The position numbers and the translations under genes are program-made. Below are positions 2,815 to 58,216 of a stretch of DNA of 64,000 nt, one piece after another (positions within the stretch are counted from its first letter, which is position 1; every line of letters starts with the position of its first letter). This DNA comes from Pilibacter termitis (lineage in GTDB: Bacteria > Bacillota > Bacilli > Lactobacillales > Streptococcaceae): the NCBI RefSeq assembly GCF_900167335.1, contig NZ_FUXI01000005.1, positions 1 to 64,000 of the forward strand, given 5' to 3'. The notes beneath the pieces are model-generated. The model had not been told where the DNA came from and did not search any database. It saw only the letters and a list, made by a program, of their open reading frames with translations.

Positions 2815-5800
2815 TTATTTTTTAGCCCAAACTGATGTTTTTCCTGGTTCGTCACCTTTTGTCCACCATTGTGCTTCGTATTTTTGTCCTTTGAAGGTTA
2901 CAGTGTCGCCTTTGACATAGATTTTTTCTGCTAACCATTCATTGTCTTGTTCTTTAACGGCTAATTCCCATGGACCTGTTCCGTAATCGTTTGGTTCATC
3001 ACCTTGAGTCCACCATTTTGCAACATATTCTTTTCCTTTATACGTTACTTTGTCGCCAGTTTGGTACACTTTGCTTGCACTCCACTCGTTATCTGTTGGA
3101 GCTGGTTTTTCTGGTGTTACTGGTGATGTTGGTAGTGGCATTGGAGGCACTACTGGTAATATTGGGTTTGGTAATTCTGGTGTTACAGGGATTGTTGGCC
3201 ATGTAATCGGAGGAACTCCCGGTAATGTTGGTTGTTCTTTCTCTTTCACCGTTACCACACGTTTTGCTGTTGTCGTGTTGTTTCCACTATCTGTTACAGA
3301 GTAAGTCAATTCATATTTTCCAGCTTTTGTTGTGTCAACTGTACCTGTCACTTTGATTTTCGCTGTCAAATCGCCGTCTTCTTTATCGCTTGCTGTAATT
3401 CCTGCAAGAGCGTTAAATTTGTCGCCAACTGTAATTGTTGCGTCCATTACACCTGAGAGAATTGGTTTTGTATCTACTACTACGCTACCACTTCCACCTT
3501 GACCATAGTCAATCAAATCTTTGTAACGATTCACAAATTCCCAGTTGTAGTTTTTTCCATTTGCGTCACATCCTGCATCCCAGTTAACAGACCAAGTCAT
3601 CAAACCTTTGATTTGGTGGTTGTCTTTTGTCAAACGAGCCATTGCGTTTTTCACGTCTTTTGCTTCTTTAACATAACCACTTCCTGCAGCATCTGGATTT
3701 GACGGCAAACCAATAACCAATTTATCGGCAGGAATTTGCACATATCCAGCAAAACCGTCTGTTCCGTTAATCAATGCTGAACTTAATGCGTACAAGAAAT
3801 CAGCTTTTTTCGCATCGTTGTTTTGTGCCAACCATACACCATTTTCTCCAGATACACCGTCGCCACCTTGGTTGTAGTATTGTGGGTTAATCCAATCGTA
3901 ATAACCTTCTAATCCTTTAATGTATTTCGCATACGAACCATTTGCTTTCAAGTATGGAAATTCAGGTGCCATTGTAATCAAGAAGTTTTTCCCTTCTCTA
4001 GCGTAATGGTCTTTTACTTCTCTCAATACTTCCGGAAGAACTGTTTGGTTTTCCGCTGCTGTAATTGCTGATTGTTCCAAGTCAATATCCAATCCGTCAA
4101 ATCCGTATTTGTCCACTTGGTTGATGATTTCTTTAACAAATGCAGCTTTATCACTTTGGCGAAGTTCAATATGAGCGTCCGCACCACCTAAAGCAAGCAA
4201 TACTGAAGTTCCTTTGGCATTCAATTCGCCAACTTCTTTACGAAACTCTTCATCTGTTTTGTTGTACGGCTTGAATGTTGGAATGTGTGAGTTGCCTGAT
4301 GCTTTCATGAATGAAACATCTACGACATTGTAGTTTTCATCAATTTCATCTAAATCAAGTGCAACTGCTGTACCACGTTGGTAGCCGTCATTTTTAGACG
4401 CCCAGTTATGCCAGTAACCAACCATTACTTGTTTACTTGGGTTCACCATTTCATCTGCAGCATCCCCTGTTGAAACGACTTTTTCTTTTACTGTAATCAC
4501 ACGTTTGGCTGTTGTTGTGTTTTTCGCACTGTCTGTTACAGAGTATGTCAATTCATATTGACCTGATTTTGTTGTGTCAACTGTTCCTGTAACGCTGATT
4601 TTTGACGTAATATCGCCGTCTTCTTTATCTGTTGCTTTTACTCCTGACAAAGCGTTGAAGTTATCGCCAACAGTAATTGTTTTGTTGCTCATGCCTGTGA
4701 ATACTGGTTTTTCATTTGGTGCTACTACTTTTTCTTTTACTGTAATCACACGTTTGACTGTTGTTGTGTTGTTCGCACTGTCTGTTACAGAGTATGTCAA
4801 TTCATATTGACCTGATTTTGTTGTGTCAACTGTTCCTGTAACACTGATTTTTGAAGTAATATCGCCGTCTTCTTTATCTGTTGCTTTTACTCCTGACAAA
4901 GCATTGAAGTTATCGCCAACAGTAATTGTTTTGTTGCTCACGCCTGTGAATACTGGTTTTTCATTTGGTGCTACTACTTTTTCTTTTACTGTAATCACAC
5001 GTTTTACTGTTGTTGTGTTGTTTGCACTGTCTGTTACAGAGTATGTCAATTCATATTGACCTGATTTTGTTGTGTCAACTGTTCCTGTAACACTGATTTT
5101 TGACGTAATATCGCCGTCTTCTTTATCTGTTGCTTTTACTCCTGACAAAGCGTTGAAGTTGTCGCCAACAGTAATCGTTTCGTTTTGCACGCCAGAGAAT
5201 ACTGGAGCCGCATCAACCGTTGATTGACTTCCGTAAATCATTTGGCTACCTACTACAATTTTGTCATTATAGTATTGTACCAATTCAATCGATTCAATTT
5301 CGTTCAATTGAGCATCTTTGCCGTCTGCACGAGTAAGTTTGAATTGTTTTGTTTCTCCTTGTTTGATGTAACGTCCATCATATTGTGTAGAAAGGTCAAC
5401 AATTGTCTTGTCGCCATTTGTTGTAACAGTTCCAGCTTTGTAATCTCCCTTGTTCAAAGTAGAACCGTCTTTCATTTTAATAACAAAATGAGGTTTTTTC
5501 ACTGCACCAAAATAACGGTCAGCATATTTCAACGCATCACTTGATGAAGTTTCTGCTTGTTGGTTGTTCGTTACAGAAATTTGGAAACCTTTTTTACCAG
5601 AATCTGTTCCTGCAAGTTCCACTTTTGCTGAAACATTCAATTTCAATTCATAGTCTTCTTTTTGGCTTGGCAATGTGAAATTGTTTCCATATAAACCTTT
5701 TGCGATTGCATCTGTCAATTCACTACGCACACCGTCATTGTCTTCGTCGTTATCTTGAGAAGCCATCCAAGAAATCATTCCACCAAGACCATGAGCTTTT

Positions 5801-7095
5801 ACATAGTTTGCTTTTTCAGTAATCGAACGAACATTTTCAAATGTATAGAAATCCTTTGTGCTTTCTGAATACATATATGGAGCTTTCGCCACATCATCCC
5901 AGTATTCTTTCAAGTCAGGAATATTGCGTTTTAATAAGTCAAGGTTACGGAATGACCATACGCCACCTTTACGTCCACCGTCTCCAGCAGCTGCTGGTAC
6001 ATCATTTTCCGCACCACGTGAAGGGCTGTCATCACCATCTTTGTTTGTTGCACTTGCTTTTTGGAACAAACCAGGTTGACTTGGGTCGTTTCCTTTTTCT
6101 ACGCTATCCCAACCACGTGTATAGAATGCTGCACCGATAACCACTTTGTCCATTTGAACATTTTTGCTTTCCAAATATTTCACCATTGTATCTACTGAAT
6201 GGTCATTTTTCGCATTTGGATTTGCATAAAGTCCTGTATGGTGACCTGTATATTCGTCAAACGCACCTGTCAAGTCATAACTCATCACATTTCCGAAATC
6301 AATAATCTTGAACAAACGAGAAACATCAATTCCTTTATCCATCATGGCAACTGAACCCGGAAGTGCTGTTGACAATTCGTAAGTTTTGCCAATTTCTACC
6401 CCTTGTTTGTCTAAACCGTCACGCAATGCTTGCATTAATTTAATGTAGTTATCGTAATCTTCAGGCTTCGCATTTGGTGTTCCTTCGTCGTTTTTGTTGT
6501 CAACTAAATCACCTTGACGAACATTTGTTGGGTATTCCCAGTCAATATCAACGAAATCCATATCTGTCAATTTGATAAACTTCATGACATTTTTAACAAA
6601 GTTAGCACGTTTTGTAGGATTTGCAGATACTTCTGAGAAGTCTCCAGACTTACTCCAACCACCAAGTGAAACACCTAAACGCATATTTGGATGTTGTGAG
6701 CGAATTGCCGCCAACGCTGGAATACAACCTGCAAGTGGATCTTCCCACTGATTGCCACTTCCCACTGGATTATCAAATGCAGCTCCTGCATCTGTCAATT
6801 TCAATTCACCATTTGAGTCAAAATCTAAGAATGAGAAGTTTAAGTGTGTGTAATCTCCTGCTGGTAAATCTTTTGGATATTGATTTCCTTGTCCTCCCCA
6901 GACTGACCAATCTCCATAATACATTACGTTACGATAAGGTGCTTTTTGTTGTTGTTTTGCTTTTGTCTGAACAGGTGTATTTGCTACAACTGTTTCGTTT
7001 GCTGCCACTGTGATAAGTGGAGTAGATAATTGCAACATTGTAAGTGCAACAGTTGACGTTGCCATAACTTTATTAATAATTTTTGATGCTTTCAC
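2815..7095 (-). CDS. Secreted multidomain chitinase with two GH18 catalytic domains
   Basis: This 1426-residue protein starts with a Sec signal peptide (about residues 1-32). The first GH18 domain (about 52-490) has the DxxDxDxE motif FVDIDWEYP, with catalytic Glu at about 187. Then come a linker domain, three nearly identical 83-residue Ig-like DUF5011-type repeats (about 630-880), a second GH18 domain (about 882-1205) with DGLDIDLE (Glu about 1007), a fourth Ig-like repeat, a proline-rich linker, and two C-terminal chitin-binding modules of the CBM5/12 type (paired W-W motifs, KWWTQGDEP and QWWTKGDEP). It should hydrolyse chitin outside the cell. The start is GTG, preceded by AGAGG 8 bases upstream. 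No LPXTG anchor is present. It is divergent from the Mga-like regulator. Confidence 0.96.
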   Translation of the reverse strand: MKASKIINKVMATSTVALTMLQLSTPLITVAANETVVANTPVQTKAKQQQKAPYRNVMYYGDWSVWGGQGNQYPKDLPAGDYTHLNFSFLDFDSNGELKLTDAGAAFDNPVGSGNQWEDPLAGCIPALAAIRSQHPNMRLGVSLGGWSKSGDFSEVSANPTKRANFVKNVMKFIKLTDMDFVDIDWEYPTNVRQGDLVDNKNDEGTPNAKPEDYDNYIKLMQALRDGLDKQGVEIGKTYELSTALPGSVAMMDKGIDVSRLFKIIDFGNVMSYDLTGAFDEYTGHHTGLYANPNAKNDHSVDTMVKYLESKNVQMDKVVIGAAFYTRGWDSVEKGNDPSQPGLFQKASATNKDGDDSPSRGAENDVPAAAGDGGRKGGVWSFRNLDLLKRNIPDLKEYWDDVAKAPYMYSESTKDFYTFENVRSITEKANYVKAHGLGGMISWMASQDNDEDNDGVRSELTDAIAKGLYGNNFTLPSQKEDYELKLNVSAKVELAGTDSGKKGFQISVTNNQQAETSSSDALKYADRYFGAVKKPHFVIKMKDGSTLNKGDYKAGTVTTNGDKTIVDLSTQYDGRYIKQGETKQFKLTRADGKDAQLNEIESIELVQYYNDKIVVGSQMIYGSQSTVDAAPVFSGVQNETITVGDNFNALSGVKATDKEDGDITSKISVTGTVDTTKSGQYELTYSVTDSANNTTTVKRVITVKEKVVAPNEKPVFTGVSNKTITVGDNFNALSGVKATDKEDGDITSKISVTGTVDTTKSGQYELTYSVTDSANNTTTVKRVITVKEKVVAPNEKPVFTGMSNKTITVGDNFNALSGVKATDKEDGDITSKISVTGTVDTTKSGQYELTYSVTDSAKNTTTAKRVITVKEKVVSTGDAADEMVNPSKQVMVGYWHNWASKNDGYQRGTAVALDLDEIDENYNVVDVSFMKASGNSHIPTFKPYNKTDEEFRKEVGELNAKGTSVLLALGGADAHIELRQSDKAAFVKEIINQVDKYGFDGLDIDLEQSAITAAENQTVLPEVLREVKDHYAREGKNFLITMAPEFPYLKANGSYAKYIKGLEGYYDWINPQYYNQGGDGVSGENGVWLAQNNDAKKADFLYALSSALINGTDGFAGYVQIPADKLVIGLPSNPDAAGSGYVKEAKDVKNAMARLTKDNHQIKGLMTWSVNWDAGCDANGKNYNWEFVNRYKDLIDYGQGGSGSVVVDTKPILSGVMDATITVGDKFNALAGITASDKEDGDLTAKIKVTGTVDTTKAGKYELTYSVTDSGNNTTTAKRVVTVKEKEQPTLPGVPPITWPTIPVTPELPNPILPVVPPMPLPTSPVTPEKPAPTDNEWSASKVYQTGDKVTYKGKEYVAKWWTQGDEPNDYGTGPWELAVKEQDNEWLAEKIYVKGDTVTFKGQKYEAQWWTKGDEPGKTSVWAKK

Positions 7096-7397: not shown

Positions 7398-8840
7398 ATG
7401 AATATCAATTCTTTATTTTTTTCCGATAGCGAACTATTACTATTAGAAGTCTATATTGAACTTTCTAAATTGAAAACAAAACAGACCGTTTCTATCAAGG
7501 CACTTTCAGAGTCGCTTTTCCTCTCCTATGGTCAAGTTTCTCGCTATCTTGTGAAAATCCAACATCAACTAACGGAAATGGACGAATGGACGAAAGGATT
7601 TGTCATTAAAAATGGCTTGATTGAGTTTCTAAAAGATTTTCCAGAAGTCGATAGCTACCGCACGTTTTTCGCACAAAAAACAATTCCTTTCCAAGTATTG
7701 CTCGCACTCCTAAATGAAGAATATGCAACCGTTGAGGAATTTTTGGACGCTCAAGGGATTTCTAAAACAACTTTGCACAACAAAACAAAAAACCTCAATG
7801 CGTTTGCAAAATTTCATGGGGTGACAATTTCCTACACTCCTTTTCAAATCAATGGAAAAGAATTTGCCGTTCGGACGTTTTTCTTCGACTTGCTCTGGCT
7901 TATTTGCAATGGAAAGGACATTTTCACAAAAGACGAAAAAATTCTCTCTAACGCTTATGAAACTTGTGCGTTAAAGGAAAATTATATTTTTAATACTCAG
8001 TGCAATTACTGGCTTAGAATTATCGAAAAACGTGTGTTACACGGTCATGAATACACGCCTCCTGAAAATTTGGAGCATTTGCTTACTTACTATTCTGATA
8101 TTCATTTGATTGAAAGCAGAAAAGTTTTCACCGAAGAACAGTTGAAACGTGAAACACTCTTTTTAAAAGTGTACGCACTCATTCAGTCAATACGCTTGAA
8201 ACGTTATGTGATCAATGATAATTTCTTCCAATATTTAAACCTTGAAGAAAGTCATGTGATTCATAAAACAGCTACACTTTTGAATAAAATTTTAATCAAA
8301 GAAAGAATTTTGACAAAAGATATGGACCAAACGAGAGTGAACAATCTTATTTTGTATATCGCACTTGTGCAGTACATCACGTCCTCACCTTTTCCGTCAA
8401 ACTCGCTTTTCTATAAGGAAGATAATGCTGAATTTAAGGAACTTCAAAAGAAAATTACGCAGGCTTTGACTCCTTATAAAATGCATTTAAAAGATTATTT
8501 GAATGACTTATCATTGCCGTTTTTAAGTCGTATGTTGACAAGAATGATTGTCAATTCACCAAAACAATATGTACAAAAAAAGGTAAGAATCGCTCTTTCC
8601 ATTGAGCCAAACAACCCGAATATCCGAAACATCATCTCGACACTTGTCAAGTATCCAAATATCGAAATCGATTGGTTCAATCCTGAGAAAGATTATGATT
8701 ACGTCATTCACACATTGGGAAACTTTTCCGAAGAATTTCCTGAACTCGACTCATTTTATTGGCAATTTCACTATGAAAAGGAAGAATTGCAACTTTTGGA
8801 ACAGATTATTATCCAGCTTTTAAATCCGAGTAGCAGGTAG
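7398..8840 (+). CDS. Mga/AtxA-like transcriptional regulator
   Basis: This 480-residue cytoplasmic protein has the layout of Mga-family virulence-type activators. An N-terminal HTH (about 8-60, including SIKALSESLFLSYGQVSRYLVKI) is followed by a second Mga-type HTH (about 90-140, VEEFLDAQGISKTTLHNKTKNLNAF). A long helical central region could carry PRD-like segments, and the C-terminal part (about 400-478) resembles the EIIB-like end of such proteins. AAAAGGGG lies upstream of the ATG. It is transcribed away from the chitinase gene, so control of chitinase is a reasonable inference but unproven. Confidence 0.75.
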   Translation: MNINSLFFSDSELLLLEVYIELSKLKTKQTVSIKALSESLFLSYGQVSRYLVKIQHQLTEMDEWTKGFVIKNGLIEFLKDFPEVDSYRTFFAQKTIPFQVLLALLNEEYATVEEFLDAQGISKTTLHNKTKNLNAFAKFHGVTISYTPFQINGKEFAVRTFFFDLLWLICNGKDIFTKDEKILSNAYETCALKENYIFNTQCNYWLRIIEKRVLHGHEYTPPENLEHLLTYYSDIHLIESRKVFTEEQLKRETLFLKVYALIQSIRLKRYVINDNFFQYLNLEESHVIHKTATLLNKILIKERILTKDMDQTRVNNLILYIALVQYITSSPFPSNSLFYKEDNAEFKELQKKITQALTPYKMHLKDYLNDLSLPFLSRMLTRMIVNSPKQYVQKKVRIALSIEPNNPNIRNIISTLVKYPNIEIDWFNPEKDYDYVIHTLGNFSEEFPELDSFYWQFHYEKEELQLLEQIIIQLLNPSSR

Positions 8841-8867
8841 GGGGAAACAAAATCTGCTGAATACTAA

Positions 8868-8905
8868 AAAACCGAGAAATTCATTGTGTGAATGGATTTC
8901 TCGGT
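8868..8905. terminator. Shared terminator between convergent genes
   Basis: AACCGAGAAAT and ATTTCTCGGTT form a long stem between the end of the Mga-like gene and the end of pduT, which converge here. A-rich and T-rich flanks are modest, but the stem is strong. Confidence 0.7.
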
Positions 8906-8911
8906 TATTGA

Positions 8912-9466
8912 CTAATAAACCAAACTCTCAAAAACCTCCTTACGAGGATTGGAAATGACCACTTTATTAATAAGCAATGCCACATCTTTCGTTGAATGGA
9001 CTCCTGCTTCGATTGCGGTATTGCAGGCTTCTGTGTCTCCTGTTACTACAACATAGGATTTTCCAGCAATTCCCGTGGCTAAACGTAGAGCGACAATTGA
9101 CACGTTCGCAGATTTCACTGCTACATCTGCTGCAAGAATCGAACCTGAACAAGAATAATATTCCATTACCCCTACCGCATTCACGCTCTCAGGAATATCT
9201 GTTCGATTGATTCCTTTGATTACTTCTTCTGAAATGCGAGGAATGACGAGATTGCCAACGATGTGCGATTCTCCAATTTCTACACCATATTGGATAGAGC
9301 GTTCAACAGAGGAAGTGTCGCCAGCAACAAGAATATAATACTTCCCCGGGCAACTTGCTTTCGCATAAATAAGCTCAATCTCTGCAATTTTCAACATCTG
9401 ATCCACTGTTTCAATTCCTTTTGATATGCTATTTAATTCTAAAAAACCTAATGTATCAATCTTCAT
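8912..9466 (-). CDS. pduT: Tandem-BMC-domain shell protein, PduT-like
   Basis: This 184-residue protein has two bacterial microcompartment (BMC) domains (about 4-85 and 97-180), the second starting at AVGVMEYYSCSGSILAADVAVKSA. PduT forms pseudohexameric trimers that carry a [4Fe-4S] cluster at the central pore. The pore cysteine is present as Cys39 in KASCPGK. In known Pdu compartments PduT partners PduS to move electrons across the shell. Here it overlaps pduS by 4 bases, so the two are coupled, but no other shell or core enzyme gene lies nearby. Confidence 0.9.
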   Translation of the reverse strand: MKIDTLGFLELNSISKGIETVDQMLKIAEIELIYAKASCPGKYYILVAGDTSSVERSIQYGVEIGESHIVGNLVIPRISEEVIKGINRTDIPESVNAVGVMEYYSCSGSILAADVAVKSANVSIVALRLATGIAGKSYVVVTGDTEACNTAIEAGVHSTKDVALLINKVVISNPRKEVFESLVY

Positions 9467-10821
9467 TTCTCTGTCCTCTTAATGTGAATTTCATTATTTG
9501 TTACATTCATCACTTTTCCAGAAATACTCGCGTGTATATTTGCTCCTAAAGAATTTTCTGGGATACTTGCAATTAAATCTCCCACATGAACGAAATCCCC
9601 TATTTTCACAATAGGAACGGACGGGGCACCGATGTGCATTTTTAGCGGAATGAATACTTCATTGACTTCGATGTGTTTCATCTGTTTTAGCGAGATATTT
9701 TCGTATTTTTTTAATCCCATTTTTATTAAAATATTTTTTGGATTGATTTGTCGATACTCTCGCATTGGGTGAGGGGCAAAACATTTTTTCTCTGTTTGAT
9801 AACGCACACCATTTTTTCCTAAAACAGATTTGACAAATTTGTTCACTTGACGAGGAGAAAGCCCCATTGGACAAGCGATCACTTCACAAATGCCACACTC
9901 ACTACAAATTTTCGCACCTTTTAAAATCTCATTTTCTTCGATTTCATAAGATTTTGCTGCACCTCCAAAATATCGCATGACTTTGTGTGGAAATACTTCA
10001 TGCCCTAAATTTTGTCGTGGGCATAATTCCGTACAAAGCGAGCATTGTATGCAGGCAGAGCTAGCTTCCAAGAAAATTTGGTCAAGTGTTTGATGTTTCA
10101 GCTTGCTCAAATATCCTTCATCTTCTTTCAAAATAATACCTGAACTTGTCTTAGTGACAACTTTTTGGCTCAATTCTTTATCCGTAAATAGTTTGCCCAT
10201 CATAGGGCCTCCGTCAATAAATAAAAAATTCTCTAAGTCGCTTCCTCCTGCAACTTCTAGTAATTTTTCAAATGGCGTACCGATTGGGGTTTCTACTAAT
10301 GTCGGTTGATTAACCGCCCCTGTAATCGTGAGTTGTTTCGTAATGACAGGTTGATTTTCAAAAACAGCACGGTAAATATTTAACATAGTCGTTACATTTG
10401 AAACAATACACCCAACGGACAACGGAATTGCTGCTGGGGGAACAATGCGACCTGTCACTTCATACACCATAAGCTGTTCATCGCCAGCTGGATAATAATT
10501 ATCCATTAGTTTCAACGTAACGTCCGCCTGAAGTTCTTTTATTGCCAAATTTAAAGATTCAATTTCTTGGGTATAATAACGTTTGGTAGCAATGACAGCA
10601 TATTTTGCTTTCGTGTGTTCTTTCATCGTTAAAATCGCTTTCACTATTTCTATTGCGTGATTACGCATAACATAATGATCTGTTTTTAACAATGGTTCAC
10701 ATTCCGCCGCATTGATAATCAAATATTCCACCGTAGCGTTCAATTTTTCATGCGTTGGAAATCCTGCTCCACCTGCTCCAACTACCCCTGCATTTTTAAT
10801 ACTTTCTATTATAGATGACAT
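9463..10821 (-). CDS. pduS: PduS/RnfC-like flavo-iron-sulfur oxidoreductase
   Basis: This 452-residue protein has an RnfC-type N-terminal half with a glycine-rich nucleotide/FMN loop (GVVGAGGAGFPTHEK at about residue 12) and a SLBB-type middle. Next come two ferredoxin cysteine sets, CIQCSLCTELCP (about 254-265) and CSECGICEVIACP (about 304-316), then a C-terminal biotinyl-like hammerhead region. PduS reduces cobalamin or passes electrons through PduT in propanediol-utilising compartments. It heads a two-gene operon with pduT. Without diol dehydratase or cobalamin genes in the window, its electron acceptor here is unknown. Confidence 0.88.
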   Translation of the reverse strand: MSSIIESIKNAGVVGAGGAGFPTHEKLNATVEYLIINAAECEPLLKTDHYVMRNHAIEIVKAILTMKEHTKAKYAVIATKRYYTQEIESLNLAIKELQADVTLKLMDNYYPAGDEQLMVYEVTGRIVPPAAIPLSVGCIVSNVTTMLNIYRAVFENQPVITKQLTITGAVNQPTLVETPIGTPFEKLLEVAGGSDLENFLFIDGGPMMGKLFTDKELSQKVVTKTSSGIILKEDEGYLSKLKHQTLDQIFLEASSACIQCSLCTELCPRQNLGHEVFPHKVMRYFGGAAKSYEIEENEILKGAKICSECGICEVIACPMGLSPRQVNKFVKSVLGKNGVRYQTEKKCFAPHPMREYRQINPKNILIKMGLKKYENISLKQMKHIEVNEVFIPLKMHIGAPSVPIVKIGDFVHVGDLIASIPENSLGANIHASISGKVMNVTNNEIHIKRTEK

Positions 10822-10878
10822 TTTTTACCACCCACTTTTTTATAATCTAATATTTTTCAACCAACTGATACCGCTATC

Positions 10879-10907
10879 ATTATACTACACTGATTTTTAT
10901 ATGGCAA
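10879..10907 (-). promoter_or_regulatory. Promoter of pduS-pduT
   Basis: On the minus strand a TTGCCA -35 (10902-10907) and a consensus TATAAT -10 (10879-10884) are 17 bases apart, about 55 bases upstream of the pduS ATG. Confidence 0.75.
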
Positions 10908-10929
10908 TGCTGTTTTCTGTAAGTTAAGG

Positions 10930-12456
10930 TTAGGTATCATTTATCGTCACAGTATAAACTGTATTAGACAACAAATACCCTGTCGGTGCTTTCGTCTCTA
11001 TAACATAGTACGTTTTGCCATACTCTAAAGTCGCTGTTGTATAACCACTCATGCCACTCGCATCCGTAGTTACTGTATCTACATTATTACCCCCGCGTCC
11101 TACTGCATCTGCGTTGCTTGTATAGACTTTGTACTCCGCTCCTGCAAAACTATAATTACTGTTATAGTGATTGCCTCCGTTTTCTGTTGAGCGTTTTTGT
11201 ACTCGGAGTTTGCCTTCTTTTAAGACTCGGAGGTTGAACCCACGCATAACAGGGTCAATTAATCCCGCTGAAAGCATATTTTGTTTGTTAGGGTCTGAAT
11301 ATAAGAATGGTGTACATCTCAAGCCACCTTTTCTTTCAAACGTAATCGTTCCATCTAAACTATTTGAAGTAGGTGTAAATGTAATACTCTTTCCGTCTGT
11401 ACTAATAGAGTAATTCACATTCGCTCCGTTGGTTTTAACTGCGTAATTTCTCAAGTCTACACCATTTGTTACATTATAAGTAATTGATTTACCTACTGCT
11501 ACACTTTGAGCTACAGCAGGGTCTTTATCAAATATTGGTAATAGTCCCCACGCATCAATATATTTCTTATAGTCTGCCATGTAGTCTTTTAACTTCTGGG
11601 TATCAATTCCTGCCATCTGACCGTTCCCTTGGATAACTCGGTCTACATTATAAACCCCTAAGTAATCCCAGATAACATAGTTAGCCACAAACTGTGGTGT
11701 GAAATCTAAATTCGTATGTGTTTCTAACCACCAGTCGTTGAATAATGCTGATGCCCACAGTACTTTCATATTCCCACGTATCGCACTTCTAACTGTTTGC
11801 TCGTCCGCTGTCACTGTCGTCCATTTGTCTCCAGTATAAATTGGCACAGTGGGTTGGATACAAAATCCATATATCCAATTTGAACCTGACGGTGTACCTG
11901 GTCCACTGTAACTTTGGTCTCGTATCATGATAGGTGCATTCGTTTCGTATATCCAATTTGACCCACTTACGGGTACTGAACTCCACCCAAATGTTTCCAT
12001 ACTGTCGCTCATCATTAGCCACACTTCATCCGAAGATGTACCTAAACGTAACCTTGGGTTTACGACCATTTTTGGATAATACTGTCCGTCTTGTCCTTTG
12101 ACATACTCAAATTTTGGAGGTTTATAACCTTTCTCAAAATATTCCCCTGGGGTCACACTTGGTGCTTGACTTGGCGGGGAGTTGTTCTTATCCTGTTCCA
12201 ATTCCGCTAAACTTGGATACTTCGCCTCCTGTATTGGCTCTTCTTGCTTTGTATCCTCTTGTACTGTTTTCTGCGGTTCTTCCTGTTCTTGCTTCTCTTT
12301 TACCTCTGAATTTTCCTCAAGTGGTGTGGTAGTGGTAACTTCCACATCACTTGAGACTTCTGGTACCTGTGCTAAAACAGATAAATTACCAGTCTGCCCA
12401 AAGAGGATAATCACTAGCATGAACAATGAACGCAATTTCCTATTGAAGTTTTTCAT
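10930..12456 (-). CDS. Secreted thioester-domain (TED) adhesin, lacking a wall anchor
   Basis: This is about 508 residues from the ATG at 12456 (MKNFNRKL), which has AAAGGAAG 9 bases upstream. A signal peptide (to about LSVLAQ) is followed by an E/K/Q-rich stretch and a thioester-type domain with the cysteine motif YGFCIQP and the later segment FVANYVIWDYLG. A SpaA/CnaB-like fold (about 420-508, ending in the ETKAPTGY motif) completes it. Such domains bind host or surface nucleophiles covalently. The position where related proteins have the thioester Gln (four residues before the Trp) reads Asn here, so thioester formation is doubtful. The protein stops just after the CnaB domain with no LPXTG, so it may be truncated or released. 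Confidence 0.72.
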   Translation of the reverse strand: MKNFNRKLRSLFMLVIILFGQTGNLSVLAQVPEVSSDVEVTTTTPLEENSEVKEKQEQEEPQKTVQEDTKQEEPIQEAKYPSLAELEQDKNNSPPSQAPSVTPGEYFEKGYKPPKFEYVKGQDGQYYPKMVVNPRLRLGTSSDEVWLMMSDSMETFGWSSVPVSGSNWIYETNAPIMIRDQSYSGPGTPSGSNWIYGFCIQPTVPIYTGDKWTTVTADEQTVRSAIRGNMKVLWASALFNDWWLETHTNLDFTPQFVANYVIWDYLGVYNVDRVIQGNGQMAGIDTQKLKDYMADYKKYIDAWGLLPIFDKDPAVAQSVAVGKSITYNVTNGVDLRNYAVKTNGANVNYSISTDGKSITFTPTSNSLDGTITFERKGGLRCTPFLYSDPNKQNMLSAGLIDPVMRGFNLRVLKEGKLRVQKRSTENGGNHYNSNYSFAGAEYKVYTSNADAVGRGGNNVDTVTTDASGMSGYTTATLEYGKTYYVIETKAPTGYLLSNTVYTVTINDT

Positions 12457-12548
12457 GAATGAATTTCTTCCTTTCACTTATATATTTTGACTTTTATATT
12501 ATCAGTCTCATATAATATAGCGCGTTCATTTGGAAGTGTTGTAAATTC

Positions 12549-12595
12549 AAAAAAAGTAGAGATATATGGATTAGATTCCTTCTCTACTTTTATTT
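12549..12595 (-). terminator. Terminator downstream of the coiled-coil gene
   Basis: AAAAGTAGAGA and TCTCTACTTTT form a stem followed on the minus strand by a T run, placed after the stop at 12620 and before the adhesin gene. Confidence 0.75.
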
Positions 12596-12619
12596 GAAAA
12601 TATTTAAATTAAGTTGGTA

Positions 12620-13615
12620 TTAGATACTTACAACTCGATAACCACCATTTCCACCCATAGCAGCTATAGCAGCTTTTCCAGCGTTCTCTGCCGCTTCCCT
12701 AGTATCGAATACACCTTTGAATGTTTCTACGTCATTACTATCTGTTATATATAGGTAATGCTTCACTTGGTTCGCTGGCGGTGCTGGCTGACTTGGTGGG
12801 GGAGTTGGTTGACTCGGTGCTGGCGTACTTGGAGTGCTTGGAGTACTTGCCGTACTTCCTCCTCCACTGCTTGCTGTACTACCTCCGCCTGTGTTGGTTG
12901 TCCCTCCTCCACTACTATTACTACTTGGATAGGTCGGTTGGACGTATGTGCCACTTCCACTGTCATATACTGGTTGACCACTACTGTTCGCTTCCGCCAA
13001 CGCATCCTCGCTGTTCGTTGCTACCTTTACTCCCTCTGACTCTGCTTTCTTCTTCTCCTCTGCCTTCCGTTTTTCTTCCGCTTCTTTATCTTTTTTATCC
13101 AACTCTGCCTTTATTGGATTGAGCTTGCCCTCTAGCTCTTTTTTTACATCTGTATTTTTTATCTTGCCTACTAACTCTAAAGCCTTTTTGTTTTTATCTC
13201 GGCTTCCTTTGTCTTTTTCGCTTTCGGTGGTTGCTTTCCTTGCGTTTTCTATATCAGTAAATTGCCCACGTGCCTGAATGAGCACATCACGCACTTTTGC
13301 TTTAAACGCCGTATCTTTTTCTTTCGTTACAAGCTGTTTCTCCAATGAAACAATTGACTCGTTTTTCACATCTTTTTTCAAAATGATTTCTTTTCCGACT
13401 TCGCTACCGTTCAGCACTTTCACCGTGAACAAATCATTCACTTCCGTTTGTGTTTGGAACATTTTCTCTACTTTTTCGACAAAAGTTGACACTTCTTTGT
13501 CCGTAGACGAAAACTCACTAAACAACTCTTTATATTTTTGATCGTCAAAGGCTTTTACTTCCTTTTCATTTGTTTTCAATTCCTCTTTGACCTTGTCAAT
13601 TTCCTCTTTTTTCAA
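12620..13615 (-). CDS. C-terminal part of a coiled-coil surface protein (downstream of an in-frame TAG)
   Basis: These 331 residues begin with long charged, K/E-rich helices (about 1-195, coiled coil). A Ser/Gly/Thr/Pro-rich spacer (about 205-285) follows, then a compact C-terminal domain (about 286-331, KHYLYITDSNDVETFKGVF onward) that resembles small peptidoglycan-associated folds but that I cannot assign. The only available start is TTG with no ribosome site. The frame is continuous with the 73-residue ORF upstream, separated by one TAG codon and five sense codons. It is therefore best read as the second part of a 410-residue, one-TM, outward-facing protein, either broken or made by readthrough. 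Confidence 0.6.
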   Translation of the reverse strand: MKKEEIDKVKEELKTNEKEVKAFDDQKYKELFSEFSSTDKEVSTFVEKVEKMFQTQTEVNDLFTVKVLNGSEVGKEIILKKDVKNESIVSLEKQLVTKEKDTAFKAKVRDVLIQARGQFTDIENARKATTESEKDKGSRDKNKKALELVGKIKNTDVKKELEGKLNPIKAELDKKDKEAEEKRKAEEKKKAESEGVKVATNSEDALAEANSSGQPVYDSGSGTYVQPTYPSSNSSGGGTTNTGGGSTASSGGGSTASTPSTPSTPAPSQPTPPPSQPAPPANQVKHYLYITDSNDVETFKGVFDTREAAENAGKAAIAAMGGNGGYRVVSI

Positions 13616-33835: not shown

Positions 33836-34575
33836 GTTCTAGCTACGAGGAGCTGAAGTCTGGCAACTGTTCACAATGTCGCTCGCAACTAACGTTGCGA
33901 GTAAATAAACGACATGGTTCACTGTTGCAGACTTCAAATCGCCCCTCTTCGCTTTTCTGTGTCTAGCTACGAGGAGCTGAAACTTGGTCGCTGTTCACAA
34001 CAGCACTGGAAACTGAAGTTTCCAGCAAGTAAATGCTGTGGCTCACTGCGACAAGTTTCAGACCGCTCCTCTCCGCTTTTCTGTGTCTAGCTGCGAGGGG
34101 CTGAAGTCTGGCAACTGTTCACAATGTCGCTCGCAACTAACGTTGCGAGTAAATAAACGACAGTGTTCACTGTTGCAGACTTCAAATCGCCCCTCTTCGC
34201 TTTTCTGTGTCTAGCTACGAGGGGCAGGAGGTTGGTCGCTGTTCACAACGTCGCTCGCAACTTGGGTTGCGAGTAAATAAACGACGTGGCTCACTGCGAC
34301 AACCTCCTTAACGCCCCTCTCGCTTTTCTTGGTCTAGCTACGAGGGGCTGAAGTCTGGCAACTGTTCGCAATGTCGCTCGCAACTAGCGTTGCGAGTAAA
34401 TAAACGACAGTGTTCACTGTTGCAGACTTCAAATCGCCCCTCTTTGCTTTTCTTGGTCTAGCTACGAGGGGCTGAAGTCTGGCAACTGCTCACAATGTCG
34501 CTTGAAACTTCGTTTCAAGTAAATAAACGACAGTGTTCGCTGTTGCAGACTTCAAAACGCCCCTCTTTGCTTTTC
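33836..34575 (-). repeat. Tandem array of six family A palindromic repeats
   Basis: Copies are at 33836-33956, 33961-34082, 34085-34206, 34209-34329, 34332-34453 and 34456-34575. Four outer-arm types alternate: TGAAGTCTGGCAAC/GTTGCAGACTTCA (copies 1, 3, 5, 6), TGAAACTTGGTCGC/GCGACAAGTTTCA (copy 2) and GGAGGTTGGTCGC/GCGACAACCTCC (copy 4). Inner hairpins are CTCGCAAC/GTTGCGAG in most copies, CTGGAAAC/GTTTCCAG in copy 2 and CTTGAAAC/GTTTCAAG in copy 6. Copy 4 also has a compensated middle arm, ACGTCG/CGACGT. The array starts 5 bases after the argS stop. Confidence 0.93.
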
Positions 34576-34579
34576 TTTT

Positions 34580-42466: not shown

Positions 42467-42802
42467 CACCTCTAAAAACTCCGTTTAATCCAAAATTAGC
42501 TAGTTTTTCTTGTTTTCGAGGAAATCGACGAAAGCTATGTGGTTCATAGAAAAGCGAAGAAGTGCGTTAAGGAGTTTGCAACAGTGAGCCGTGTCGTTTA
42601 TTTACCGCTACACTTCGTTTCGCATACAGTCTTTCTAAGAATCAAAGATTCTTGAAAGACTAGCATCGAAACTTTAGTTTCGAGCGACACTACGAACAGT
42701 TGCCAAACTCCTGCACTTCGGAGCTAGACAAGGTTGAGGAGACTGACGAAGAAAATCGGGAAACTAGCAATTTTGGATAAGCGTGAGTTTTTAGAGGTGC
42801 CC
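42464..42802. repeat. Family B inverted repeat interrupted by a family A element
   Basis: The left part (GGGCACCTCTAAAAACTC with core up to AAATTAGCTAG) and the right part (AACTAGCAATTTTGG with GAGTTTTTAGAGGTGCCC) together would make one ordinary family B unit. About 260 bp including a complete family A copy is inserted between them. This dates the family A insertion after the family B insertion at this site. Confidence 0.75.
42548..42729 (+). repeat. Enlarged family A repeat nested in family B
   Basis: It runs from AGAAAAGCG to GCTAGAC. Outer arms AAGGAGTTTGCAAC/GTTGCCAAACTCCT and middle arms GTGTCG/CGACAC are complementary. The inner part is longer than usual: TCGAAAC/GTTTCGA plus an extra hairpin, AGTCTTTC through GAAAGACT, containing AAGAATC/GATTCTT. 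It is the only copy that does not directly follow a stop codon. Confidence 0.85.
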
Positions 42803-48705: not shown

Positions 48706-48748
48706 AAAAGGACGCTCAAAACTCCCTTTAAGTTTTAAGCGTCCTTTT
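48706..48748. terminator. Terminator shared by the MacB remnant and allH
   Basis: AAAAGGACGCT and AGCGTCCTTTT form a strong stem. It overlaps the last codons of allH (stop at 48728) and would terminate transcription in both directions. Confidence 0.8.
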
Positions 48749-49543
48749 CATTCCCACAAAAATCCCAGCCATTGTATCTGCCCCAGACGTGCTACCACTT
48801 GCTAATAACGCTAAGAAACTGCTCTCGTGTGTTTGTGATAGAAAATCTATGATTAATGAGCTAAATTTCTTTTGTAGAGCAGCACGCAGATACATGGTTG
48901 AAACATCTGTTGTTCGCCTTTCGTGCAATAATTTTTCCAATATCGGATAAAATTGGCTGTCTAAAAGGTTGAAATGGCTATCGACAGACAGTAAACCTAC
49001 TAGAAAATCATCTCCCGAAGGAGTCAAACCGCACCCTCGACCTAAATAATACGTCAAACCTCTCTCTATCTTCTCTTCGTTTGTTGAAAACAGACAAGAG
49101 AGGGTTTCAGAATTTTCCTCAAGTTCTTCCGTAAAATCTAGTCCAGTCAAAAGTTTTATTCCTTGAATTTTCTTTGATTCAACAAACGGCTGGTGAATCG
49201 TAAGGTTTCCGTCATGTTCCTCTACTTCGTCAAAGTGAAAGGTTTCACCATTTGCAAGCAATGTCATGGTGTGAAATGTGGGCGGAAAAAATACAGAAAG
49301 TTTCTTTTCCATTTTCACCGCCTCTTTCAGTCGTAAAAATTCACTTGTTTCCATGTGAAGTCCAAACGGTGTAATGCCTTTTTCCAGATTGCCAATAAAA
49401 ATTAATTGGTTGTCTATTTGCATATTGAACCCACTTTGAAAAACGCTGTGAACTTTTAATTCTATCTCATTTTTCATTGAAGAATGAACTAGAGAAACGC
49501 TTAACATTTTCTTTACTAAACTGCCTATTTTGACTGATTTCAT
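48728..49543 (-). CDS. allH: Oxamate carbamoyltransferase subunit AllH (YlbF/DUF2877)
   Basis: This protein of about 271 residues belongs to the DUF2877 family. Diagnostic segments are GLTPSGDDFLVGLL (about 198-211) and the C-terminal GSTSGADTMAGIFVGM. In Escherichia coli AllF, AllG and AllH (formerly FdrA, YlbE, YlbF) together form oxamic transcarbamylase. The start is uncertain: the open frame extends into allG, but ATGs at 49543-49549 lie after the allG stop and have weak GGTG or AAAGG sites. It is the last gene of the cluster. Confidence 0.85.
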   Translation of the reverse strand: MKSVKIGSLVKKMLSVSLVHSSMKNEIELKVHSVFQSGFNMQIDNQLIFIGNLEKGITPFGLHMETSEFLRLKEAVKMEKKLSVFFPPTFHTMTLLANGETFHFDEVEEHDGNLTIHQPFVESKKIQGIKLLTGLDFTEELEENSETLSCLFSTNEEKIERGLTYYLGRGCGLTPSGDDFLVGLLSVDSHFNLLDSQFYPILEKLLHERRTTDVSTMYLRAALQKKFSSLIIDFLSQTHESSFLALLASGSTSGADTMAGIFVGMKRTLKT

Positions 49544-49568
49544 TTTCATCACCGTTTTTACTAACCTT

Positions 49569-50831
49569 TTATTTCTCCATTCCCAATTTTTCTGCGTAGG
49601 CACGGAGGGCTTTTTCAAAACAAGCAAGTGGCGGAGTAACCGTTCCTGCTCCGATTTGACCAATTCCTGCTTTTTTGTGAGCAATTCCTGTATTAATCAC
49701 AGGTAAAATGCCTGTTTCCACCACTTTTCTTGCATCAATGCCTAAGCAAATTCCCTTGAAATCCCACGTAGGAACTGGGAAATTCGGGTTGTGTGCAAGG
49801 CAAATTTCGGTCATATTGTCGCTAATTTCCAATGCCTCATAGAAGCCACCTGTTCCTACAAATCGTGTAACTGCTGGAGCAGCAATCATCGCCATTCCAC
49901 CTACTCCGAAAGTTTCCGTAATCGCACTGTCTCCAATATCTGTATTGGCATCTTCTGCTGAATATCCTGAGAAATACAGACCTTCTGGGGTATTTGCAGG
50001 TGCTGTAAACCAAGTATCGCCCATGCCACTAATGCGAATACCAAAATCTTTTCCATTTCGGCACATCGCAGTTACAACCGTTCCTTCTTGAATTTTCCTT
50101 GCTCCGTCCATCACTGCTTTTGAAGCTGCCATCATGATGTTGAGGAAAAATTGATCCGTATCCGCCAAAAATGTCAGCACTTCTTCTTTTTCCTTTTCAG
50201 AAATCACAAGTTTTGGAATAATCGGAGCAATTTCTTTTAAAAATGCTAGAGATGCGGCAATATTTCGCTGATGAAATTCGTCGCCCATCGCAATCGCTTT
50301 AGCAATCAAGACATTCAAATTCAAGCCATTTTCCAATGTTTTCAATGCTTTGCTCAATGTTGGTCCTAACACGTCACGCATCCAACTTAATCGCTTAATC
50401 ACCTCTGGAGAATACGCACCAAATCTAAGCACGGCACCAATTCCCTCGTTCATTGTGCAATACGCACGATTGTTGTCTGTTGCATTTTCCACTACAAATA
50501 CAGGCATATTTTGAGAGGTAATCCCTCCCATTGGTCCAACTGCTTGCACCTCGTGACAAGGGATAAAGGTAATTTTTCCATTTTCCAAAAGCTCCAGAGC
50601 CTCTTCTTCAGTAGTTGCCCAGCCCTCAAAAAGCGTTGCTCCGATACAAGAACCTTGCATTGGGTTTGTCATCTCATGAAATTGAATAGGCGGGCCTGCA
50701 TGAAGTAACACGTAATCCTTTAATTCTGCAATCACTTCTTTTGCTGGCACTACATCCAATAAGAATGGAGATGAGGCAATTATTTTGTCAATAACAGCTT
50801 GATTGGCTTGATCAATTGTTTGATAATTCAT
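49569..50831 (-). CDS. allG: Oxamate carbamoyltransferase subunit AllG (YlbE/DUF1116)
   Basis: This 420-residue DUF1116 protein has recognisable YlbE segments: HAGPPIQFHEMTNPMQGSC, FIPCHEVQAVGPMGGITS and VCRNGKDFGIRISGMG-type sequence. With AllF and AllH it transfers the carbamoyl group of oxalurate to phosphate, giving oxamate and carbamoyl phosphate, whose energy can be taken as ATP by carbamate kinase. GGAGG precedes the ATG. It is 24 bases from allF. Confidence 0.9.
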   Translation of the reverse strand: MNYQTIDQANQAVIDKIIASSPFLLDVVPAKEVIAELKDYVLLHAGPPIQFHEMTNPMQGSCIGATLFEGWATTEEEALELLENGKITFIPCHEVQAVGPMGGITSQNMPVFVVENATDNNRAYCTMNEGIGAVLRFGAYSPEVIKRLSWMRDVLGPTLSKALKTLENGLNLNVLIAKAIAMGDEFHQRNIAASLAFLKEIAPIIPKLVISEKEKEEVLTFLADTDQFFLNIMMAASKAVMDGARKIQEGTVVTAMCRNGKDFGIRISGMGDTWFTAPANTPEGLYFSGYSAEDANTDIGDSAITETFGVGGMAMIAAPAVTRFVGTGGFYEALEISDNMTEICLAHNPNFPVPTWDFKGICLGIDARKVVETGILPVINTGIAHKKAGIGQIGAGTVTPPLACFEKALRAYAEKLGMEK

Positions 50832-50854
50832 TTTCTCTACTTCCTCCGTTCATT

Positions 50855-52615
50855 TTATGATTTCTTAAATTGATAAGTATCTAAGAAATGTAAGATTTTT
50901 TGTAATTCGATATTTCCGCCTGCAACAGGTGCCCAATTGTATTGAACGACTTCCCCGTTGTTTTCAATGATAGACTCTGTAAAGCTCTTTAAACCTACGT
51001 TGATAACCGTTGGTTTTGTTGAAAGTAGTTCGCTCAATTCTTTTGAGGTTTTTGGTAACGGACTTTCGCATGAAATTTCTTTGCTTGCGTAGATTTCTTT
51101 TTCTACAAACTGAACTTCTTTGCCTAGTAATTTCAAAGCAGTTTGTACCGCTTGTGTATTATTTTCACAAACTGTCACACCAACTTCTTCTAAAATTTTC
51201 TTTTGCGTCTCCATTCCTTGAACGTCTAAATCTGTTCCGACAATTACCCCGATAAAAGCGACTTCTCTCTTTTGAAGAGCGAGTGTTTCTTGTACTTCCT
51301 TGATTACTTTTGCAAGACATTCTGCCATATTTTTATGTGCTCCGTAGCCAAGGACAATATCAAAGAGTACGGTTGCAACCGTTGAGTCGTTGACAATTTC
51401 TTTAATTTTTCCAATACGATTTTCTGGGTCAATCATCGGATGTGGTTTCCCATTCGTATAAATATCATCACCCAAATCAATGATACTATGCTCACTCGTC
51501 TGGAGCATGACTCCTTCTTTATGCTCCACTTCCTCAAGAACAAGAGCATCTTTCAAGAGCATTGACGCCTCATAAGCTAACGTGCCGCCTGCATAAAACC
51601 CACGAATACCGACTTGTTCGTTCGTCAATTTTACATTGAGTTTCTCTGGAGAACGTGGCGTGTATTGTACTGGCTCATGATTTTGGATTTTCGTTGCAAG
51701 TTGTGCAGTTTCTTCAAGCGTATAGGCTTGATAAATATTTTTTTCATGAAAACTTGGTTTTTCGCCAATAAAAATCGTTACCACAGGTTTAGAAATGGCA
51801 TGTAAAAGTTTCATCACTTTTTCCTTGATTTCTTTTGCAGGTGGCTTAGAAATCACGACAATTGTGTCAACATTCACATCTTCGTTCAATGCAACAATCG
51901 CATCAATCATGGAAATTGCCCCGACTTCTGATGACAAATCACGTCCACCTGTACCAATTGCATTGCTCACACCTTGACCATAACGGTGAATAAGTGTTGA
52001 AACTTCCTGTATGCCTGTGCCAGAGGCCCCCACAATCCCAATTTTTCCCGCACGAATGTTATTGGTGAATGCAAGTGGCAATGTGTGAAGAATCCCTGTC
52101 CCACAATCAGGTCCCATGACAAGCAAGCCTTTTTCATGTGCCAATTTTTTCAAACGAAGTTCTTCTTCTACTGGCACATTGTCGCTAAAAATAAATGCGT
52201 GCAACCCGTGATGAAGTGCTTTTTCCACTTCAAGTGGCACGTATGCTCCCGGAATTGAAAACAGAGCAACAGAGGCATTTTTCGCTTTTTTCAATGCTTT
52301 TTCCCACGAGTTCACATTTTCCTCTCGCACACCTTCTCCGTCCTGTTGTTTTAATAAATATTCATCTACTTTTTCCAGAACTTCTTTTTCATTGCCACCA
52401 TTTTCTAGCTCTAGCATGATGACCATGTCATTTGCTGATGCCTCTTTCATCTCTGGTGTATCAAATCCTGCGGCGATAAAAATATCTTTATTTGCAGGTG
52501 TTCCCATCATAATCGAAACACGTTTTACCGCATCAAGTTCATTGATTTTATTCGTTAAAAGCATTAAAACAACAGAGTCTTGATAACTATTTTTCTTAAT
52601 TATTGTTTGTAACAT
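50855..52615 (-). CDS. allF: Oxamate carbamoyltransferase subunit AllF (FdrA)
   Basis: About 586 residues from the ATG at 52615 (MLQTIIKKNSYQDSV), with GGGAG upstream. It has a succinyl-CoA synthetase alpha-like fold, with a CoA-binding-like N-terminal domain including GPDCGTGIL and GIVGASGTGIQEV, and a ligase-type second half with GGTLAYEASMLL. This matches FdrA. It acts with AllG and AllH on oxalurate. The predicted in-frame upstream start is less likely than this one because relatives begin at this ATG. Confidence 0.9.
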   Translation of the reverse strand: MLQTIIKKNSYQDSVVLMLLTNKINELDAVKRVSIMMGTPANKDIFIAAGFDTPEMKEASANDMVIMLELENGGNEKEVLEKVDEYLLKQQDGEGVREENVNSWEKALKKAKNASVALFSIPGAYVPLEVEKALHHGLHAFIFSDNVPVEEELRLKKLAHEKGLLVMGPDCGTGILHTLPLAFTNNIRAGKIGIVGASGTGIQEVSTLIHRYGQGVSNAIGTGGRDLSSEVGAISMIDAIVALNEDVNVDTIVVISKPPAKEIKEKVMKLLHAISKPVVTIFIGEKPSFHEKNIYQAYTLEETAQLATKIQNHEPVQYTPRSPEKLNVKLTNEQVGIRGFYAGGTLAYEASMLLKDALVLEEVEHKEGVMLQTSEHSIIDLGDDIYTNGKPHPMIDPENRIGKIKEIVNDSTVATVLFDIVLGYGAHKNMAECLAKVIKEVQETLALQKREVAFIGVIVGTDLDVQGMETQKKILEEVGVTVCENNTQAVQTALKLLGKEVQFVEKEIYASKEISCESPLPKTSKELSELLSTKPTVINVGLKSFTESIIENNGEVVQYNWAPVAGGNIELQKILHFLDTYQFKKS

Positions 52616-52669
52616 TCTTGAACATTCTCCCTTCTTCACCCTCAAATTGAGGATACTCCTTTAAACACT

Positions 52670-53746
52670 TCATTTTTTTGACCCTGCTGCAAATGCAGTG
52701 GAGTGGTCGTATTGGTTGCGGTGAATGATGTCGCTTTCTAGGTATTCATAGACTGATTTTGCAATCGGAATACCTTTTTCTTGGTTTTCTTCAGCGATTT
52801 TTTCCGACAGCTCGCCCGGATATAATACTTCGCTAAAGCCATTTCCTGCTGGAATACTATGAAGTTCATCAATCATTTGGCTTAGACGTGCCTTGAATGT
52901 CTCAAGGTCGGTAAAATAGGTTGGATTTATCACAATGTGTAATTGACCAAGATTCCTTTTTTCCGTCATGTCGTTATACATACTCGTCACGTGTTTTCCA
53001 AAAGGAAGTCCTAGCAAACTGCCAGAGAGAATATCCACCATCATCATCAAACCATACCCTTTTGCACCTGCAATCGGCAATAAGCCTTGCACTTCATAAG
53101 GGTCTGTTGTCGCATTTCCCTCTTTGTCGACTGCCCAAGTGTCTGGAATAGAATGATTTTTACTTCTCGCATCCAAAATTTTCCCCCAAGCCTGTACTGT
53201 CGTTGCCATATCAAAAACAATCGGACGTTTTTTATTTGTCGGTGCAGCAAATGCAATTGGGTTCGTGCCAAAATAATTTTCTCGCCCACCGAACGGGACG
53301 ACCATTGGATCTGATTGACAAACGGAAATAGCGACTAAGTCTTCTCTTGCTGCCATATCTACATAATAAGAAAGTGTGCCACTATGCCCCATTTCTCTTA
53401 CACCTACTACTCCAATTCCACTTTCCTTGGCAAGTTTGATTGCCTCCTCCATTCCTTTTTTCGCCACCATATGACCTGCTCCATTATCTCCATGAAAAAT
53501 TCCAGTGCTTGCTCCTGTTTTTTCAAAGCGAAGTTTTGGCTCTAATGTCGTGCCTCCTTTTGAAATACGCTCAGCATAATATTCTACACGAACTGCTCCA
53601 TGTGAATGAATGCCTCGAATATCTGCAAACACTAGATTATCCGCAATATCTCCTGCATATTCCTCGGATAAACCAGCTTTTGATAATTTTTTTACAATTT
53701 TTTCTTTTAATTCAAAAGCTCCTAGTCTAATCACTTCATTTTCCAT
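52670..53746 (-). CDS. allD: Ureidoglycolate dehydrogenase (NAD+)
   Basis: This 358-residue member of the malate/L-lactate dehydrogenase (Ldh_2) family oxidises ureidoglycolate to oxalurate. Visible features are the conserved RGIHSHG (about 43-49), the catalytic GHSGTLSYYVDMA region, FGTNPIAFAAPT and GAKGYGLMMMVDILSG. Its place between allE and allF supports AllD rather than another Ldh_2 enzyme. GGAGAG precedes the ATG. Confidence 0.93.
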   Translation of the reverse strand: MENEVIRLGAFELKEKIVKKLSKAGLSEEYAGDIADNLVFADIRGIHSHGAVRVEYYAERISKGGTTLEPKLRFEKTGASTGIFHGDNGAGHMVAKKGMEEAIKLAKESGIGVVGVREMGHSGTLSYYVDMAAREDLVAISVCQSDPMVVPFGGRENYFGTNPIAFAAPTNKKRPIVFDMATTVQAWGKILDARSKNHSIPDTWAVDKEGNATTDPYEVQGLLPIAGAKGYGLMMMVDILSGSLLGLPFGKHVTSMYNDMTEKRNLGQLHIVINPTYFTDLETFKARLSQMIDELHSIPAGNGFSEVLYPGELSEKIAEENQEKGIPIAKSVYEYLESDIIHRNQYDHSTAFAAGSKK

Positions 53747-53823
53747 TTTGCTCTCTCCATTCCAAGATTTTCTACTGATTTATATTCCCTTTTAGATAAG
53801 GGCATCTCTAAAAATCAGTAAAT

Positions 53824-54612: not shown

Positions 54613-54696
54613 AATAATTCTCCGTTTCTTTTTTACTACTGCCTAACCCTTTTTCTTTTTTCCACGAAACTCTGTCTCTCTCCTAAATTTCCGCAT

Positions 54697-55914: not shown

Positions 55915-55926
55915 TTTAATTCTCCT

Positions 55927-57525: not shown

Positions 57526-57612
57526 TTCGTATTCCTCTTTTCTTTTTATTTTTTTGGAAAATCCTTGTGCTACACCTTTTTAGCCTTAGAAATTCCTTTA
57601 CCTTACACTTAT

Positions 57613-57628
57613 ATTGTAATCGTTTGCA
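57613..57628 (-). promoter_or_regulatory. Probable CcpA cre site upstream of allC
   Basis: On the minus strand TGCAAACGATTACAAT matches the cre consensus TGNAARCGNWWWCAW in full (only the optional W before it is G). A TATAAG -10-like box overlaps its downstream end, so CcpA binding would block the promoter. The rest of 57526-57720 is AT-rich without a gene. Confidence 0.65.
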
Positions 57629-57720
57629 CCTGGATTTCATTAGTTGGTTTAAACAAGAATAAAAACAATCTTTATCATTTTTATACAAAGACTTTTTTCT
57701 TAAAAACACCAGCTCCTCTA

Positions 57721-57763: not shown

Positions 57764-57772
57764 TATTGGCAC

Positions 57773-57825: not shown

Positions 57826-57827
57826 TA

Positions 57828-58184: not shown

Positions 58185-58216
58185 ATTGGTCTCCTTATTC
58201 CATTTTTTTCTTTTTT

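Follow-up and report, generated by a model that had tools for sequence, protein, structure and literature searches.

As a rule, the proteins PduS and PduT are assigned to a single named organelle. The PduS of Citrobacter carries out NADH-dependent reduction of cobalamin and binds PduT, and its [4Fe-4S] cluster motifs are found at C264-C274 and C309-C320 (PMC2982820). PduS is defined by a set of four domains, namely Complex1_51K, SLBB, a 4Fe-4S dicluster and an RnfC_N-type domain, and the PduS-PduT pair is already known from compartments other than those of pdu loci (PMC6325248). Satellite loci of bacterial microcompartments (BMCs) are likewise a recognised class, and some of them originated when a main locus split (PMC4207490, PMC8217296). 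The literature we searched, which had limited coverage, contained no description of a PduS-PduT satellite or of movement of the pair between pdu and eut loci.

The window, by which we mean the whole 64,000-nucleotide stretch of Pilibacter termitis DNA analysed here, belongs to a draft assembly (59 contigs, 98.7% complete) and contains an intact pduS-pduT pair (Table 1), whose position and two open reading frames are exactly those given in the earlier note. We consider it very probable that this pair is a BMC satellite locus, which has departed from a main microcompartment operon and now provides PduS and PduT in trans.

Table 1. The pduS-pduT unit, its predicted signals and its immediate neighbours, in window coordinates
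Feature	Position	Strand	Remarks
pduS-pduT unit	8912-10821	-	intact pair, 452 + 184 aa
pduS	9463-10821	-	452 aa; predicted NADH/FMN/2x[4Fe-4S] corrin reductase
pduT	8912-9466	-	184 aa; predicted tandem-BMC (BMC-T) shell protein, putative pore Cys39
Overlap of pduS stop and pduT start	9463-9466	-	ATGA, in the sequence
Sigma-70-type promoter	10879-10907	-	predicted; TTGCCA-17 nt-TATAAT, 11/12 consensus bases
Imperfect palindrome, possible operator	10866-10879		TGATAGCGGTATCA, abuts the -10 box; cre-like, 12/14 vs WGWAARCGYTWWMA
Intrinsic terminator past pduT	8864-8906	-	hairpin + T-run, stem 8870-8906; z -4.8; inverted repeat I1
Mga/EbpR/MafR-type regulator	7398-8840	+	convergent neighbour, outside the pduST unit
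SpaA-domain pilin-like ORF	10930-12477	-	upstream neighbour, outside the pduST unit

The identification of the genes as pduS and pduT, with Cys39 of PduT kept, agrees with both domain content and motifs. PduT contains two PF00936 domains (3e-40) and is thus of the tandem-BMC type; it aligns over its full length to the solved PduT-type BMC-T trimers 3nwg (6.6e-37), 3pac and 3n79, is 71% identical to the pdu-linked PduT of Listeria, and carries the pore cysteine motif C-P/S/A-G-K/R/S-Y/F as C39-PGK-Y. Its score against TIGR02526 (eut_PduT) is 129.7 bits, under the cut-off of 250.3, as are the scores of the pdu-linked Listeria PduT (139-142 bits) and of all other Lactobacillales and Bacillota PduT found. 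That cut-off is passed solely by an eut-linked paralogue of Listeria and in 0 of 398 genomes sampled across the phylum; TIGR02526 is therefore a narrow model, and the PduT of the window is of the pdu or general type and not a TIGR02526 equivalog. The paralogue in the Listeria eut loci (L165/L167/L169) is a second BMC-T protein, 28% identical, which has a CPGK pore motif and no adjoining PduS. Both this paralogue and a protein of genome G524 were rejected as PduT orthologues, being BMC-T proteins of 28-30% identity.

In PduS the domain set is complete (PF01512 or Complex1_51K, SLBB, Fer4_17 as the 4Fe-4S dicluster, and the RnfC_N-type domain) and both [4Fe-4S] motifs are kept, CxxCxxCxxxC at residues 257-267 and CxxCxxCxxxxC at 306-317, where Citrobacter PduS leads one to expect them. 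The protein is 63-66% identical to the PduS of Listeria and of the nearest relative, G011, and it narrowly exceeds the cut-off of the rnfC subfamily model (250.8 vs 245.95 bits), as is expected within the RnfC superfamily. The predicted folds of PduT and PduS are settled by homology to solved BMC-T and RnfC structures. When pduST is compared with G011 and Listeria, pN is 0.18-0.25 and pS is saturated at 0.73-0.79, and thus the pair is under purifying selection. A decaying remnant of a lost BMC operon might be suggested by the isolated site beside a pilin-like ORF that lacks a cell-wall anchor. However, this explanation is very improbable, given intact frames, the conservation of all metal-ligand cysteines, a strong predicted promoter and terminator, low non-synonymous against saturated synonymous divergence, and two client loci in the genome.

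The signals around the pair bear out the earlier description of a two-gene operon with its own promoter. The genes overlap, an AGAGGA ribosome-binding site precedes the start of pduT, and the predicted promoter is the joint best among 18 promoter-like sites in positions 8500-13000. Past pduT, none of 200 shuffles folds as well as the terminator stem, and this terminator may also serve the convergent gene. The flanking genes are unrelated, as had been noted. The upstream ORF, which lies 108 bp upstream of pduS, stops directly after its SpaA domain and lacks both an LPXTG motif and a membrane anchor; this and the EbpR/MafR-like regulator suggest that the pair lies in or beside a disrupted pilus region. 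No convincing terminal repeats indicating transposition of pduST were found.

Elsewhere in the window, positions 2815-7095 encode a secreted protein of 1426 aa that combines two chitinase-like catalytic regions with repeated domains. Positions 48728-63800 hold an apparent allantoin/ureide and glyoxylate degradation cluster, unusual in a lactic acid bacterium and judged by eye from the translations, with FdrA-like and AllC/AllD/AllE-like products, an MFS transporter, glyoxylate carboligase, hydroxypyruvate isomerase and glycerate kinase. Dispersed intergenic repeats, 70-93% alike, often tandem and partly about 120 bp apart, occur at 2310-2805, 33900-34578, 42545-42613, 55926-56293, 58280-58426 and 60740-61166, and also on contig C32 at 65.2-66.4 kb (within its pdu operon) and 77.5-78.1 kb; a second repeat type is found at 61.3 and 80.7 kb of C32 and at 128.9 kb of contig C20.

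As for control of the pair, the palindrome TGATAGCGGTATCA matches WGWAARCGYTWWMA, the lactococcal cre consensus, at 12 of 14 positions; matches of this quality number about 50 in 64 kb, so that the match is not significant alone and we do not regard TGATAGCGGTATCA as a cre site. Similar palindromes, GAYARYGRYRTC, precede pduS in five Vagococcus-family genomes, although the pattern was fitted to these very sequences and the likeness is a lead only. The 89-nt leader before pduS contains no EutV-type terminator element and folds like its shuffles (z -0.61), from which it follows that the pair is not under EutV antitermination control. The hairpin of TGATAGCGGTATCA does have an A1/G4 hexaloop, but it was rejected as a EutV element, since it straddles the predicted start site and no terminator comes after it. 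No cobalamin riboswitch was found near pduST at the gathering score (L013). Nor was any regulatory element found that pduST shares with the pdu operon or the eut operon, the palindrome being absent from L009-L012, and this weighs against the satellite reading.

A search of the whole assembly for BMC domains returned 14 matches above cut-off in three places, which rules out an orphan pair in a genome without any BMC. The description of the pair as an orphan without a microcompartment operon thus stands locally and fails genome-wide. On C32, positions 59401-77410 hold a complete pdu locus without pduS and pduT, in which PduA, B, C, D, E, G, H, K, J, L, an EutJ-like protein, M, N, O, P, Q, a glycerol-channel protein (F) and acetate kinase (W) are encoded on one strand, and PocR, PduU and PduV divergently; all pdu functions searched for besides S and T are present. 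On C20, positions 113571-129535 hold a complete eut locus, also without pduS and pduT, in the order eutP, a PduO-type adenosyltransferase, eutG, eutS, eutV, eutW, eutA, B, C, L, K, E, two eutM-type BMC-H genes, eutD, a 176-aa ORF, eutN, eutH and eutQ; the EutV encoded there has an ANTAR domain. Of the two uses proposed earlier for the pair, service to a microcompartment encoded elsewhere is the one supported by these two loci. No second PduS or RnfC was found in the genome, where the PduS of the window is the sole PF01512 and sole PduS match, which rules out redundancy of the pair through such a protein.

Much of the cobalamin pathway consists of the tetrapyrrole methylase family, of which the genome has a single gene, and so there is no cobalamin biosynthesis pathway. 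The cell therefore depends on imported corrinoid, followed by its reduction and adenosylation, and each BMC locus encodes a PduO-type adenosyltransferase.

The earlier note had held that a complete locus elsewhere, lacking exactly pduS and pduT, would make the pair a simple split operon. The C32 locus is of this kind and split operon is the right class; however, the split is less simple than expected, as the sister pair in G011 sits in a eut operon and there have been several moves of the pair among pdu loci, eut loci and unlinked sites. A true PduT was found in two of 295 same-family genomes, that of the window and G011; PduT-like matches in G091 and G295 proved to be two separate choline-locus BMC-H genes joined across stops. 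In G011, pduS lies at a contig end and pduT is split over that end and the end of another contig, and from a gap of about one codon we infer the join. The joined order would be pduS-pduT-eutP-(PduO)-eutG-eutS-eutV-eutW-eutA-B-C-L-K-E and onwards, which is the eut order of the window's genome with pduST in front, and G011 has no pdu shell genes. Double hairpins make up the leader of pduS in G011 and likewise that of eutP in the genome of the window; their hexaloops have A first and G at position 4, and a strong terminator follows in each leader, as in the EutV/ANTAR antitermination element (PMC3369931). The matching leaders place pduST exactly between leader and eutP in G011, and show it missing from that slot in the window's genome.

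Across the order, a PduT at E 1e-20 or better is present in 25 of 395 sampled genomes, in five genera, and we read the neighbourhoods of relatives by tblastn with the pdu and eut proteins of the window's genome. In Listeria pduS-T-U-V heads the pdu locus. In Enterococcus florum, Enterococcus sp. 669A and PF1-24 pduST is divergent from the pduUV of pdu, and in G442 it lies past the pdu end, with a separate eut locus that lacks ST. In Vagococcus fluvialis, V. allomyrinae, V. proximus, V. fessus and two more genomes of that family pduST is divergent from the eut operon, and in most Vagococcus eut is the neighbour of the pair, also in genomes that have pdu. In V. fluvialis and G436 the pdu locus, which is distant or on another contig, has no ST, and the single pair is next to eut. 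Neither genome yielded a second PduT, and their second PduS match is RnfC/PrdC-like, 38-40% identical over the N-terminal half only. Isolation of the pair, raised earlier as a point to examine in relatives, thus holds for the enterococcal genome G553 (4.6 Mb), where it is unlinked, and not for G011, Listeria, G442 or the other Enterococcus and Vagococcus genomes named above, where it adjoins pdu or eut.

A maximum-likelihood tree of concatenated PduS and PduT (39 rows, 637 columns) joins the pdu-linked, eut-linked and unlinked pairs of Lactobacillales and Listeria in one clade (100/100), within which the window pair is sister to that of G011 (100/98) and the two together are sister to Listeria (100/99). 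The 16 rows of this clade require the neighbourhood class to have changed five times or more, and we conclude that a single orthologous pair has been re-sited repeatedly among pdu, eut and unlinked positions, and not that a separate pair belongs to each BMC type. This re-siting is a step beyond the first reading of the locus.

These data bear on whether the pair serves one compartment only. That it simply left the pdu locus and serves the Pdu compartment alone would be consistent with a C32 locus that is otherwise complete, with the head position of S-T-U-V in the pdu locus of the next-nearest kin, Listeria, and with the enterococci of closest pdu genes (PduC 86-88%), which keep pduST beside pduUV. 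Nevertheless we judge this unlikely, because the sister pair belongs to a eut operon in a genome without pdu shell genes, and because V. fluvialis and G436 also have pdu loci without ST and a single pair beside eut. Another possibility is that the pair originally separated eutP from its EutV-dependent leader, was displaced in the lineage of the window and has the Eut compartment as its only client; for this the identical eut gene order in the two genomes, the dual-hairpin and terminator leader directly 5' of eutP in one and of pduS-pduT-eutP in the other, and the sister relationship of the pairs can be cited. This, too, is rather improbable, as the pdu locus would be left without a corrin reductase, and with one relative only, a move out in the window's genome or a move in in G011 would both fit.

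The second use proposed earlier, a stand-alone electron conduit, or else a corrin reductase independent of any microcompartment, finds some encouragement in the physical isolation of the pair with its own predicted promoter and terminator, and in G553, whose sole BMC locus is a CutC choline locus about 140 kb from the pair (on G553:C1 the loci lie at about 479-499 kb and 632-634 kb; L184, L185), so that the pair there has no B12-dependent BMC client. However, PduT belongs to the BMC-T shell proteins, CutC-type BMC loci are known to include PduS homologues (PMC6325248), and every pair-bearing Lactobacillales or Listeria genome examined also has a complete BMC locus, all of which leaves this reading unsupported and extremely improbable.

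We therefore return to the satellite locus, a helper unit of a known, detached type, which probably serves one of the organelles or both. PduT would join a shell built from genes elsewhere and place a [4Fe-4S] cluster in the trimer pore, where PduS would dock to it, take electrons from NADH via FMN and two clusters, and reduce cob(III/II)alamin, from which the PduO-type adenosyltransferases would rebuild adenosylcobalamin; PduS may also exchange electrons through the PduT pore. B12 reactivation and electron exchange for the C32 and/or C20 compartments is the most economical role. Both loci are adenosylcobalamin-dependent, each has its PduO and no pduST of its own, the cell makes no B12, and only one pair is present in those relatives that have both organelles; both organelles are thus the likeliest clients, with about an even chance, while pdu alone is doubtful and eut alone slightly more so. 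PduST may be dispensable for one of the two BMCs. We tentatively propose, at somewhat short of even chances, that one PduT trimer enters both Pdu and Eut shells and one PduS reactivates B12 in both, and that unlinking from PocR and EutVW enables the sharing. Shell proteins of the BMC-H kind have been reported to be cross-compatible between BMC types (PMC12058022); this lends plausibility to a shared tile and says nothing on PduT.

In view of its repeated re-siting, the pair behaves as a portable redox and B12-reactivation module, probably common to two organelles. One orthologous pair occurs next to propanediol loci, next to ethanolamine loci or apart from both, and where a genome has both organelles there is only one pair; should that pair serve both, operon content alone is insufficient for reading shell composition. 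A shared PduT would also be a natural redox-centre shell tile that fits more than one shell, useful for electron ports in synthetic compartments. Moreover, the pair makes it testable whether PduT serves B12 reactivation, given that both clients use B12, or general electron export.

In comparison with the PduS-PduT of pdu operons (Citrobacter/Salmonella; Listeria), the window pair is alike in domains, cluster motifs, gene order and tight coupling, with 63% (PduS) and 71% (PduT) identity to the Listeria pdu pair. It differs in being unlinked to BMC genes, in having its own predicted promoter and terminator, and in sharing its genome with a eut locus whose relatives make use of this pair. PduS falls in the same superfamily as the electron-transfer proteins RnfC and PrdC, although no Rnf complex partners lie near pduST and the domain order is that of PduS, with the RnfC_N-type domain C-terminal. 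The PduS-PduT of GRM and eut-type loci (Ferlez 2019; clostridial eut loci) likewise shows the pair serving non-pdu compartments, but is kept inside the main locus, whereas the window pair lies outside. In arrangement the pair resembles BMC satellite loci (Axen 2014; Sutter 2021), which are distal and contiguous, with PF00936-type shell gene(s) only and main loci elsewhere. In the window pduT is the only shell gene, with no PF03319-type product among the neighbours seen, and complete BMC loci lie on C32 and C20. Strictly, Axen allows no other BMC-related genes nearby and pduS is present beside pduT, so that the pair is satellite-like by Axen and a satellite by Sutter 2021. Its composition is a PduS and PduT redox module rather than extra shell tiles, and its genome offers two possible main loci, not one.
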